From positions 1 through 64,000 of the forward strand of contig JABURQ010000051.1 in the NCBI GenBank assembly GCA_014762625.1: DNA of 64,000 nucleotides. The letters are read 5' to 3'. Source of the DNA: Planctomycetaceae bacterium (lineage in GTDB: Bacteria > Planctomycetota > Planctomycetia > Planctomycetales > Planctomycetaceae). Position numbers and translations under genes: made by a program. The notes beneath the pieces were generated by a model that ran no database searches, had not been told where the DNA came from, and worked only from the letters and a program-made list of their open reading frames with translations. This document shows, one piece after another, positions 32,588 to 36,765 of this stretch (positions are counted from its first letter, which is position 1; each line of letters starts with the position of its first letter).

Positions 32588-33310
32588 ATGGAAAGCCAGC
32601 TTCAATTCGAAATCGGACGACAACCCGATTTATTCACCTGCGGGCCGACCTGCTTACAGGCCGTTTATCGCTTTTTCAATTACGAAACCCAACTCCAGAA
32701 TGTCATTGACGAAACTCCGCGGTTGGAGAACGGCGGGACGTTAGCGGTTTCGCTGGCCTGCCATGCGTTGGAGCGAGGGTTTCGAGCGATGATCCACACC
32801 TGGAATCTGTTGGTATTTGACCCGACCTGGTTTCCCAGCGATCCAGCCGATTTGCGGGCAGCTTTGATCGAACAACAACAGCTCAAGCAAGATCCACGCA
32901 TCCAGCAGGCTTCTGAAGTTTACCTTCGTTTTCTAGAGCTAGGTGGGGAATTGCGGATGGACGATCTCAATTCCTCCCTGATTCGCAAATATCTGAAGAA
33001 GAATATTCCCATCCTCACTGGTTTGAGTGCGACTTACCTCTATCGAGAGCCTCGAGAATACGGTTTGGACTCGCACCCCGATCCCATCCGGGGAACTCCG
33101 CAAGGACACTTTGTGGTGCTGTGTGGGTATGACTCGACGCAGCGAAAGGTGCTCGTCGCCGATCCGTTACATCCGAATCCGCTCGCCAATCAGAATCAGA
33201 AATACCTGGTTGGTTTGGACAGCGTGATCTGTTCGATCATGTTGGGAATTGTAACTTACGACGCCAACCTCCTGATTCTGATTCCCCCGGATCGAGAAAT
33301 CACCTTCTGA
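32588..33310 (+). CDS. Cytoplasmic C39-like (papain-fold) peptidase
   Basis: The 240-residue product has the catalytic residues of the C39/papain-like fold: C18 in FTCGPTC followed by a helix (LQAVYRFF), H174 in GHFVVLCGYD and D192 in VLVADPL. There is no signal peptide, transmembrane domain or ABC ATPase, unlike bacteriocin-exporting C39 transporters, so it acts in the cytoplasm, as a peptidase, transpeptidase or amidase. It is the first gene of a four-gene operon; the RimK-like gene starts 13 bases after its stop. From memory, papain-like peptidases are typical neighbours of RimK-like ligases with the RLAN N-terminal domain. Confidence 0.8.
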   Translation: MESQLQFEIGRQPDLFTCGPTCLQAVYRFFNYETQLQNVIDETPRLENGGTLAVSLACHALERGFRAMIHTWNLLVFDPTWFPSDPADLRAALIEQQQLKQDPRIQQASEVYLRFLELGGELRMDDLNSSLIRKYLKKNIPILTGLSATYLYREPREYGLDSHPDPIRGTPQGHFVVLCGYDSTQRKVLVADPLHPNPLANQNQKYLVGLDSVICSIMLGIVTYDANLLILIPPDREITF

Positions 33311-33323
33311 AAGAACGTTGCCG

Positions 33324-34802
33324 ATGCCGATCATTATTGTCGCCAGTCAGCCGGAAGATTGGCCGTTTGATTTACCCGGAATCGATGTGATTGATGAGTG
33401 GACTTACATCACCTCGACCCGCTATTCCGAGTTACGACATACCCGAGTCATCAATCTCTCGAGATCGCTGAAATATCAGAGCGCCGGATATTACGTTTCT
33501 TTGCTGGCGGAAGCCCGAGGTCATAAGCCGTTACCCTCCATACTGACGCTACAGGATTTGAAGTCTCAGTCTCTGGTCAAATTGATTTCGGAAGAGCTTG
33601 ATGAGCTATTTCAAAAATCACTGAACCCGCTTCACTCCGACGAATTTACCCTCTCAATCTACTTTGGGAGAAACATGACGACGCGCTACGACCGGTTGTG
33701 TCGGCAATTATTCAATTTGTTTCCGGCGCCCCTCTTGCGAGTCAGGTTTTCCAAGACGAAACAGAAATGGAACCTCCGCAGTGTCAAAGCACTCTCAGGA
33801 GGCGAGGTGCCGGAATCTCATCGCAGTTTCGTTGCGGAAGCCGCCGCGCGCCATTTCGCCAGTCGCTCAACTCCTCGCCCTAAAACCAATCGCTATCGCT
33901 ACGATATGGCGATTCTCTGGAATCCCGAGGAGCAGGAAAACGCCCCTTCGAACGAGCAGGCCTTGTCACGATTCTGTAAAGCGGCCGGAAAACTGGGGAT
34001 TTTCGCAGAACTGATCTCTCGCGATGACTATGGCTCCCTGATGGAGTACGACGCTTTGTTCATACGGGAAACGACCTCAATGAACGATCATACCTATCGT
34101 TTCTCCCGCAAAGCCGCCAATGAAGGACTCGTCGTTATCGACGACCCGCAATCGATCGCTCGCTGCACGAATAAAGTCTTTCTGGCAGAACTCCTCCAGC
34201 GCAATCACATTAAAGTTCCTAAGACCGTCGTCCTGCACCGAGAAACACTTTCTTCGCTCGAAGGAGCCCTGGGGTTTCCCTGCGTGCTCAAAAAACCGGA
34301 CAGTTCCTTCTCGGTGGGGGTCGTCAAGGTTCACTCCCTGGACGAATTGAAGTGTCAGGCGGCAGAATTCCTCGGGGAATCCGAGCTTCTCGTGGCCCAG
34401 GAATTTCTACCGACGGAATTTGACTGGCGAATTACGCTCTTGGATGGAAAGCCTTTGTTTGCCTGTAAATATTTTATGGCTCCGGGGCATTGGCAGATCA
34501 TCCAACAGGAAAAACACGGTCGAGGCCGATACGGCAAGAGTGAAACGTTGCCTGTCGAATTGGTTCCCCGGAAAGCGATCAGGCTTGCCACCAAAGCCGC
34601 TCAACTTATCGGCAACGGTCTGTACGGAGTGGACGTCAAACAGTCCGCCGGGGAGTTTTACATTATTGAAGTCAACGATAATCCGAACATCGATTCCGGT
34701 GTCGAGGATGCCGTTCTGCGGGACGAGCTGTATGAAAAAATCATGCAGGTGTTCCTGACGAGGATCGAGCGACAGAAGTCCGCCTACGAGGTCGGAGCAT
34801 GA
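33324..34802 (+). CDS. RimK-like ATP-grasp ligase with RLAN-type N-terminal domain
   Basis: The 492-residue product has an N-terminal alpha/beta domain (about 1-165, beginning PIIIVASQPEDWPF) that resembles the RimK-like ATP-grasp N-terminal (RLAN) domain, then a pre-ATP-grasp region and an ATP-grasp ligase (about 275-485). ATP-grasp features are NKVFLAELLQRNHIKVP, the phosphate-binding GFPCVLKKPDSSFSVGV, the adenine-side LLVAQEFL and the Mg-binding IEVNDNPNID. Such enzymes form an amide between a carboxylate and an amino group, as RimK adds glutamates to ribosomal protein S6. The stop overlaps the next start (ATGA), indicating translational coupling. An in-frame TTG at 33318 is an alternative start. 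Confidence 0.85.
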   Translation: MPIIIVASQPEDWPFDLPGIDVIDEWTYITSTRYSELRHTRVINLSRSLKYQSAGYYVSLLAEARGHKPLPSILTLQDLKSQSLVKLISEELDELFQKSLNPLHSDEFTLSIYFGRNMTTRYDRLCRQLFNLFPAPLLRVRFSKTKQKWNLRSVKALSGGEVPESHRSFVAEAAARHFASRSTPRPKTNRYRYDMAILWNPEEQENAPSNEQALSRFCKAAGKLGIFAELISRDDYGSLMEYDALFIRETTSMNDHTYRFSRKAANEGLVVIDDPQSIARCTNKVFLAELLQRNHIKVPKTVVLHRETLSSLEGALGFPCVLKKPDSSFSVGVVKVHSLDELKCQAAEFLGESELLVAQEFLPTEFDWRITLLDGKPLFACKYFMAPGHWQIIQQEKHGRGRYGKSETLPVELVPRKAIRLATKAAQLIGNGLYGVDVKQSAGEFYIIEVNDNPNIDSGVEDAVLRDELYEKIMQVFLTRIERQKSAYEVGA

Positions 34803-36040
34803 ACCAGTCTCCTTATCCTCTCTGGGAAGCGTACGGCGTGGAATTGGAATACATGATCGTGGATTCCGAGAGTTTCAATGTCCGCCCGATTTGCGATGAG
34901 TTGTTGAAGTCGGTCGCGGGACGCTACGTGTCGGACGTCGAACGTGGTGCCCTGGCCTGGTCGAACGAACTGGCATTGCATGTGGTGGAAATCAAAACCA
35001 ACGGTCCTGTTGCTTCTTTGGCAGGACTGGCCAAGAAGTTTCAACAGGAAGTCCTGGAAATCGAGTCCCGGTTGAAACCTCTGGGAGCGTGCCTGTTGCC
35101 GACGGCCATGCATCCCTGGATGAATCCGGATCGAGAAATGCGGTTGTGGCCTCACGACTACAGTCCGATTTACGAGGCGTATGATCGAATTTTCGATTGT
35201 CGGGGGCATGGCTGGGCCAACCTGCAATCGGCGCACCTGAACTACTCTTTTGCGAACGATCGTGAGTTCGCCAGTCTCCATGCGGCGATCAGACTCGTTC
35301 TGCCTCTGTTGCCGACGCTTGCTGCGAGCTCTCCCGTCTGCGACGGACGGTTGACGGGGTTGGCGGACACGCGCCTCGATGTGTACCGAAAGAACGCGAG
35401 GAGAATTCCCGAAGTGGCGGGGTTTGTGATTCCGGAAACCGTTTCTTCCCGAGCGGAGTACGAAGAGAAGATCTTTGCCCCCATGTATCGGGCGATTGCT
35501 CCTTACGACCCCGATCATTTGTTGCAGGACGAATTTCTGAACTCTCGGGGAGCCATTGCCCGCTTTGAAAGAGGCAGCATCGAAATTCGACTTTTGGATG
35601 TGCAGGAATGTCCCGCCAACGACCTGGCGATTGCGGAGGTTGTCACCACACTCTTAAAAGAATTAACGGAAGCCCGTTGGTCCTCTCTTTCGGATCAGCA
35701 GTCAATCCCGGTAGCGACTCTGGTAGACGTCTTGAGCAGGAGCACAGAACTCGCCGAAGAGTCCGTGATCAGCGAGACTCAGTTTCTCCGGATCTTCGGT
35801 CTTCAAGATGCGCGCCTCTCTGCCCGGGAATTCTGGCAGCGGATTATTCCTCAACTGGAACTTACTTCCGAAACACAGATGCGCATACAACGAATTCTGG
35901 AGTTAGGAACACTTTCGACCCGCCTGAAACAGAGCGTTTCAGAAACTCCCGTGCATCAGGAACTTTTGCAGGTCTATCGTCAGTTAGCAGAGTGTCTGCG
36001 AACGGGAGCAACATACGTGCCCGAGCGAGACATTCGATGA
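34799..36040 (+). CDS. Glutamate-cysteine ligase family 2 (GCS2)-type carboxylate-amine ligase
   Basis: The 413-residue product has the GCS2 signature GVELEYMIVD (residues 14-23), the central HLNYSF segment, and FERGSIEIRLLDVQECP near 265. GCS2 enzymes use ATP to make a gamma-glutamyl or similar amide. The amine and acid used here are not known; glutathione synthesis is unlikely because no glutathione synthetase accompanies it and the partner is RimK-like. It overlaps the RimK-like gene by four bases upstream and the amidohydrolase gene by four bases downstream, so the three are strictly coupled. Confidence 0.85.
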   Translation: MNQSPYPLWEAYGVELEYMIVDSESFNVRPICDELLKSVAGRYVSDVERGALAWSNELALHVVEIKTNGPVASLAGLAKKFQQEVLEIESRLKPLGACLLPTAMHPWMNPDREMRLWPHDYSPIYEAYDRIFDCRGHGWANLQSAHLNYSFANDREFASLHAAIRLVLPLLPTLAASSPVCDGRLTGLADTRLDVYRKNARRIPEVAGFVIPETVSSRAEYEEKIFAPMYRAIAPYDPDHLLQDEFLNSRGAIARFERGSIEIRLLDVQECPANDLAIAEVVTTLLKELTEARWSSLSDQQSIPVATLVDVLSRSTELAEESVISETQFLRIFGLQDARLSAREFWQRIIPQLELTSETQMRIQRILELGTLSTRLKQSVSETPVHQELLQVYRQLAECLRTGATYVPERDIR

Positions 36041-36765
36041 CATGGAAGTTGATTGTCACTTGTGAGCACGGCGGTCACAAAATTCCGCGACAATATTTTT
36101 CCCTGTTTCGATCGGCTCGTGAAACTCTCCCGACTCACCGTGGTTGGGACGCGGGGGCACTGCCGTTAGCACGCCGAATTTCAGAGTGCTTCAACGCTCC
36201 TCTGATACTTTCAACGACTTCGCGATTACTGGTCGATCTGAACCGGTCCGTCGGGCATCCGAGACTGTTTTCCGAATGGAGCCGGAAGCTGTCCCAACCG
36301 GCTCGAGATCAGGTTCTCGAAAATTTCTATCATCCTTTTCGCGATGAAGTGATTCAGACCATCCAGTCATTAATGTCAAAAAGGCAGAAGGTTCTCCATC
36401 TCTCCGTCCATACATTCACCCCCGAACTGGCCGGAAAACATCGGAAAACCGATGTCGGATTACTCTACGATCCTCGCCGACTGTCGGAAAAACAATTCGC
36501 ACGCCTCTGGAAGTCCTCCCTCCAGAAAGTGCTTCCTCGCACGATGTGCGTGCATTGCAACCAGCCCTATCAGGGAGTCTCCGACGGGTTCACGACATCG
36601 TTGCGTCGACAGTTCGACAGCGAGAACTATCTGGGGATTGAACTGGAGATCTCTCAGAAGTGGCTTACGGAGAATCAGCATTTCCCCAGTCGGCTCGAAC
36701 AACAGATCGTCGAGAGCTTGAGCGCTGCCTGGACATCATTCAAAACCATCGGCAGCCACGGATGA
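36037..36765 (+). CDS. N-formylglutamate amidohydrolase-like enzyme
   Basis: The 242-residue product has the FGase family pattern: VTCEHGGHKIP at the N-terminus, HRGWDAGA near 34, LLVDLNRS near 69 and HLSVHTFTPEL near 120, with His and Glu residues placed for zinc. Family members hydrolyse N-formyl or other N-acyl groups from glutamate or related amino acids. There are no histidine-degradation (hut) genes here, so a role in trimming or deprotecting the product of the two upstream ligases is inferred. The ATG at 36037 overlaps the GCS2 stop (ATGA). Confidence 0.82.
   Translation: MTWKLIVTCEHGGHKIPRQYFSLFRSARETLPTHRGWDAGALPLARRISECFNAPLILSTTSRLLVDLNRSVGHPRLFSEWSRKLSQPARDQVLENFYHPFRDEVIQTIQSLMSKRQKVLHLSVHTFTPELAGKHRKTDVGLLYDPRRLSEKQFARLWKSSLQKVLPRTMCVHCNQPYQGVSDGFTTSLRRQFDSENYLGIELEISQKWLTENQHFPSRLEQQIVESLSAAWTSFKTIGSHG

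Follow-up and report, generated by a model that had tools for sequence, protein, structure and literature searches.

The window analysed here, a stretch of 64,000 nucleotides from a Planctomycetaceae bacterium, holds four genes arranged head to tail on the forward strand. The first (32588-33310, 240 aa) encodes a C39-like papain-fold enzyme of family Peptidase_C39_2 (PF13529; C39 hereafter) and is followed after a gap of 13 bases by a gene at 33324-34802 whose product, 492 aa from the ATG, joins an RLAN domain (PF14401) to a RimK-type ATP-grasp ligase (RLK). A GCS2-family ligase (PF04107; 34799-36040, 413 aa) and an FGase-family zinc amidohydrolase (PF05013; 36037-36765, 242 aa; FG) complete the operon, and ATGA overlaps occur at both the RLK/GCS2 and the GCS2/FG junctions. 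In a Pfam scan all four products score above the cut-off: C39 with 41.3 bits (cut-off 24, E=3e-10), GCS2 with 90.8 bits (cut-off 21, E=1e-25) and FG with 82.3 bits against a gathering score of 28.9 (E=7e-23). RLK matches RLAN with 170.7 bits (cut-off 25) at residues 27-173 (E=2e-50) and RimK with 33.2 bits (cut-off 21) at residues 283-457 (E=5e-8), and the joining of an RLAN part that exceeds its gathering score to a RimK-like ATP-grasp part places it among the RLAN (PF14401) RimK-like ATP-grasp ligases. These coordinates, junctions and scores bear out an earlier note on this DNA, which had read the locus as four same-strand, near-overlapping genes of named families. The scores of RLK, GCS2 and C39 against NCBIfam models all stay far under the curated cut-offs, and FG matches none of the models at E≤1. 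The host genome (6.2 Mb, 99.99% complete) contains one RLAN gene, two GCS2 genes, the second of which is YbdK-like, and one FGase gene, so that FG is the sole FGase found in a genome-wide search.

Is this arrangement more than a chance grouping? In 150 RLK loci, of which Planctomycetota contribute 70 (the window included) and named GTDB-set genomes the other 80, the order C39-RLK-GCS2 on one strand is present 113 times, with FG directly next in 73. Going by record titles, the RLK-operon loci span ten phyla or more, those of the named set including Planctomycetota, Pseudomonadota, Bacteroidota, Deltaproteobacteria, Verrucomicrobia, Acidobacteria (Vicinamibacteraceae), Spirochaetes/Leptospiraceae, Nitrospirota, Balneolaceae and Ignavibacteria, although single phylum assignments may be wrong because many of these genomes are MAGs. 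Cultured carriers of the RLK locus include Thiobacillus thioparus, Marivirga, Pontibacter, Nitrosomonas communis and Blastopirellula marina. Since the named set is made up of the top-scoring hits of a query alignment headed by the window's own protein, its proportions are biased, and whole-genome co-occurrence in 392 Planctomycetota genomes offers a less biased test. RLAN is present in 93 of these genomes and is patchy even inside the window's own family. A full RLK was found in 79 genomes, the operon types of GCS2 and C39 in 70 and 64, respectively, and all three in 62; GCS2 occurs without RLK in three genomes and C39 without RLK in only one, at a contig edge. Pairwise co-occurrence of RLK, GCS2 and C39 gives Fisher p values of 6e-59, 2e-56 and 2e-60 in a calculation that ignores kinship. 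Moreover, the three proteins diverge pairwise in a correlated way (r 0.57-0.71, while permutations reach no more than 0.14), and in one sampled protein (L067) RLK and GCS2 form a single-ORF fusion of 1028 aa; several related genomes have ORFs roughly 1000 aa long at corresponding places. In genome G247, GCS2 seems to be divided between two overlapping frames (L044 6462-7776), through either a frameshift or an assembly error.

The active sites are also well kept. In C39 the triad C18/H174/D192 and the oxyanion residue Q12 are invariant in 116 sequences, one from each locus compared; in RLK, K284, K323, E449, N451 and N453 are invariant in all 150 proteins. E15, E17, N56, E57, H61, E64, R258 and E262 are invariant in 125 GCS2s, where the ExE, ExxxHxxE and ExR-type motifs are invariant or nearly so, which gives this protein the metal and ExR motifs of its family in addition to its Pfam score. 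Likewise, E10, H11, H34, D38, N69, R70 and H125 are invariant in 75 FGs. The earlier note had found key residues intact in each of the four products of the window, the ATP-grasp lysines of the RimK-like protein included. That note had also held that a joint pathway would be unlikely if the genes lay apart in most relatives or if ligase or peptidase residues were lost in orthologues; the genes are kept in order in most loci, and the residues proposed for catalysis vary little or not at all. Gene order, co-occurrence, the RLK-GCS2 fusion and residue conservation together argue strongly for a joint pathway. Judged from these sequences, the four genes are a conserved, co-inherited module with intact active sites, and the recurrence of these genes in unchanged order in genomes that are assigned to many phyla indicates that the pathway is real and widespread.

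The proposal of a four-gene pathway has to be amended in its details, FG being facultative. The FG state requires at least 17-19 forced changes along well-supported branches of the tree, and five genomes (G283, G257, G171, G342 and G231) have the operon C39, RLK and GCS2 and no FGase anywhere in the genome. Because FG has been lost or gained repeatedly, the core is taken to be the three genes C39, RLK and GCS2. C39 is otherwise nearly universal, but some genomes keep RLK-GCS2 without it, as the near-complete genome G266 does.

Which partners accompany RLK when GCS2 is missing? Most sampled RLK loci without GCS2 carry a GNAT acetyltransferase, either fused to RLK (L052, L062 and L064), fused to a DUF3335 C39-like domain (L066, L071-L073 and L081) or as a neighbouring gene (L065, L069, L070, L131, L158, L160, L170 and L177). 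A GNAT partner is also present in nine of the 11 planctomycete genomes that have a full RLK but neither the operon GCS2 nor the operon C39. The operon C39 and the DUF3335-type C39 domain are homologous (hhalign probability 95.6, E 1e-8), and no more than three changes on the tree are required to account for the GCS2/GNAT state. The GNAT partners, the homologous C39 types and the small number of state changes indicate that RLK and a C39-like enzyme recur together while the third enzyme alternates between GCS2 and GNAT. The GNAT-DUF3335 loci share the RLK family and a homologous C39 domain with the operon but have GNAT in place of GCS2 and, in the loci examined, no adjoining FG. Two of the GNAT loci, from planctomycete family f14 (L069 4306-6208 and L070 4748-7347), have the RLAN and ATP-grasp parts on separate ORFs, with GNAT downstream. 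A fusion of GNAT with a carbon-nitrogen hydrolase (nitrilase) also recurs beside RLK operons: it is sited between GCS2 and FG at L082 7735-9324 and L166 9739-11328, where FG would be at L162 9877-11496 and L074 7968-9572, and beside the operon at L142 10387-11973, and a further copy (L081 2328-3929) adjoins a GNAT-type RLK locus.

The frequency of GNAT partners raises the question of whether RLK is the common peptide ligase of a compatible-solute or capped-dipeptide pathway resembling that of N-acetylglutaminylglutamine amide (NAGGN), with the cap added by GCS2 here and by GNAT elsewhere. Both the sampled loci and the nine planctomycete genomes fit such a scheme, and one of these GNATs weakly matches TIGR03103, the NAGGN synthetase model, in its GNAT portion (35.9 bits, cut-off 569). 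NAGGN synthetase itself combines GNAT with ATP-grasp, as do the three loci in which GNAT is fused to RLK. However, the operon has neither a GNAT nor an asparagine-synthetase-like amidotransferase, and TIGR03103 is absent among the 25 families listed for RLK, which makes this reading quite improbable for the window.

RLK consists of RLAN at about residues 1-190 and a RimK/LysX-type ATP-grasp ligase at about residues 190-490. The structure predictions suggested in the earlier note were run for RLK and C39 (pLDDT 91.5 and 94.4) and recover ArgX/LysX/RimK and papain-type folds, respectively. Residues 193-483 of RLK match ArgX/LysX with Z 26.6 and RimK with Z 25.2-25.7. RLK nonetheless scores far below the models for RimK S6:L-glutamate ligase (TIGR00768, 57.9 vs a cut-off of 143.4; PRK10446, 21 vs 331), and the pathway's proteins bear only generic names in annotations, such as 'RimK family protein' in Legionella adelaidensis. 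The contacts of RimK with poly-glutamate are S7, R64, R189, N262, R8, S14 and S68 (PMC10092738). The first four align with RLK S209, R248, R369 and N451, all of them invariant or almost invariant; R8 corresponds to N210, so that four of the five alignable contacts are kept; S14 and S68 are unalignable.

The closest folds to the C39 model, made with AlphaFold, are the double-glycine C39 peptidases (Z 16.3, 136 residues aligned), phytochelatin synthase Alr0975 (Z 15.8, 162 aligned) and the isopeptidase PeiR (Z 15.0, 148 aligned), and the overlap with phytochelatin synthase and isopeptidase extends over 148-164 residues. Because the Z values differ so little, fold alone cannot tell a peptidase from an acyl transferase. 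C39 is a single domain with no ABC transporter part; it reaches 20 bits against the bacteriocin-processing family PF03412, below the cut-off of 22, and no match to PF05023 (phytochelatin synthase) was reported in the Pfam scan. The second substrate site of AtPCS1 includes an Arg and a Lys (PMC3855540), in place of which C39 has P164 and N197 at H-10 and D+5 when compared by offset only. We propose that C39 may act as a transacylase or isopeptidase-type enzyme.

The resemblance to double-glycine peptidases, the top fold match, could suggest that C39 is the leader peptidase of a RiPP pathway, and ATP-grasp enzymes do make graspetides (PMC8939145). Yet no conserved short precursor ORF occurs near the operon and no ABC transporter adjoins it in the window. 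No GCS2 protein is known to make graspetides, and the RiPP/graspetide reading is disfavoured as very improbable.

A second alternative is protein tagging, in which GCS2 would add a further isopeptide bond and C39, with its papain fold and a logic like that of deubiquitinases, would strip the tag together with FG. The ligase half of RLK is closest in fold to ArgX/LysX, which work with the carrier LysW, and to RimK, which works with RpsF; it keeps the peptide-binding residues of RimK, and PeiR is among the closest folds to C39. On the other hand, no conserved small carrier or target gene was found ≤900 bp on either side of the operon, and GCS2-family enzymes generally work on free amino acids. 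Tagging appears unlikely, if somewhat less so than a NAGGN-like solute, and these two are the main rivals of the reading favoured below.

The best NCBIfam match of GCS2 among the glutamate-cysteine ligase, YbdK and EgtA models is TIGR02050 (51.7 vs 176.4; EgtA 11.4 vs 370.8), and its nearest solved structure, YbdK 1r8g, is matched at an E-value of only 0.013. By sequence comparison GCS2 forms a deep branch of its own, apart from YbdK, GshA and EgtA. 'GCS2-type' cannot be read as glutamate-cysteine ligase, since the protein lies far below every cut-off there, and this branch may use no glutamate at all. The closest solved structure to FG is 2ODF (Atu2144, uncharacterised; E=6e-22). As to the N-formylglutamate deformylase function of HutG in histidine degradation, FG drew no NCBIfam match at E≤1 that would point to it.

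We hypothesize that the operon encodes a cytosolic non-ribosomal pathway for a small glutamyl-type amide conjugate, with a logic like that of GshA, GshB and phytochelatin synthase, and we give this reading a probability of roughly 0.6. In its favour are the gene order, the co-occurrence, the RLK-GCS2 fusion, the correlated divergence, the conserved residues, the unconserved flanks, the RimK contacts kept in RLK and the match of the C39 model to phytochelatin synthase and an isopeptidase. Counting against it are the equal closeness of that model to double-glycine peptidases, the missing Arg and Lys at the offsets compared, the RLK-GCS2 genomes that lack C39, the repeated loss or gain of FG, the chance that GCS2 uses no glutamate and the neglect of kinship in the p values. 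From established family chemistry one would expect two amide ligations driven by ATP, an acyl-enzyme step on a thiol and, optionally, the action of a zinc amidohydrolase. GCS2 would spend ATP on the first amide, most likely between a glutamate carboxyl and an amine. RLK would next attach an amino acid to the acidic GCS2 product, again at the expense of ATP, gripping the substrate carboxylate with the residues that RimK uses for its poly-glutamate chain. C39 would form a thioester on Cys18, followed by acyl transfer to another amine, as when phytochelatin synthase acts on gamma-Glu-Cys, or by hydrolysis, and FG would take off or recycle a terminal acyl or amino-acid group. An order in which GCS2 starts, RLK extends, FG trims and C39 releases is plausible, and the product is proposed to differ from glutathione. 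More specifically, GCS2 and RLK could make a gamma-glutamyl peptide that C39 oligomerises or transpeptidates, yielding an unrecognised glutathione-like cofactor or chelator; this is a doubtful version, which if true would constitute a bacterial counterpart of phytochelatin synthesis in at least ten phyla. A search of Planctomycetota for phytochelatin synthase, run without a positive control, found none. Invariant active sites in a unit conserved across many phyla, and present in cultured strains, point to a common undescribed small molecule or modification, and the three-enzyme core with its GCS2/GNAT alternation provides a concrete, testable scheme for finding the product.

When loci were compared outside the operon, no flanking gene was conserved beyond close relatives. 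In several distinct lineages the operon has as its neighbour, on the opposite strand, a gene for an EgtC-like class II amidotransferase (L033 8398-9288, L112 10433-11521, L115 10429-11559, L140 1262-2134 and L145 5205-6122), the two that were scanned scoring 199-204 bits against TIGR03442 (cut-off 218.65). A role in ergothioneine synthesis was considered and is unsupported, because the more distant neighbours, in the loci scanned, are carAB and other genes rather than egtB or egtD. A related gene flanks the operon in several lineages (L032, L103, L106, L135, L163 and L164) and encodes an MFS transporter in both cases scanned (L106 and L163); no flanking gene of this type adjoins the operon in the window. 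A protein of about 400 aa, without a Pfam match in the one member scanned, is encoded upstream of C39 in about ten loci (L033, L034, L036, L050, L084, L090, L112, L115 and L167). Annotated phages gave no RLK matches. Nine RLK relatives were found on viral contigs, seven of which match the ATP-grasp half only; these (L185-L190 and L192, on contigs classed as viral) apparently lack RLAN, since the matches begin near RLK residue 190.

How does the operon compare with known systems? Iyer et al. 2009 reportedly defined RLAN, described RLAN-ATP-grasp proteins with papain-like peptidases, GNATs and GCS2 as neighbours, and predicted peptide synthesis. None of the papers found in literature searches describes the operon or mentions the RLAN family by name, and those citing that work concern other systems (Pseudomonas RloABC, Shewanella flagellin and vesicle production). 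The operon is a well-supported member of this RLAN-GCS2-papain association and so of a known, as yet uncharacterised kind, whose members reportedly share its combination of enzymes; here the C39-RLK-GCS2-FG order is quantified across phyla, and the analysis adds the quantified core, the facultative status of FG, the fusion of RLK with GCS2, the alternation of GCS2 and GNAT and the conservation of residues. RimK (the poly-glutamate/RpsF ligase) and LysX/ArgX have the same ATP-grasp fold as RLK (Z 25-27) and several of the same substrate-carboxylate contacts, whereas RLK has the additional RLAN domain, scores far under the NCBIfam cut-offs for RimK and LysX and keeps other gene partners. Like GshA, GshB and phytochelatin synthase, the operon unites a carboxylate-amine ligase, an ATP-grasp ligase and a papain-fold enzyme that may be able to form gamma-glutamyl acyl-enzymes; it differs in that its ATP-grasp enzyme is of the RimK/LysX type with RLAN and its C39 yields no reported match to PF05023.
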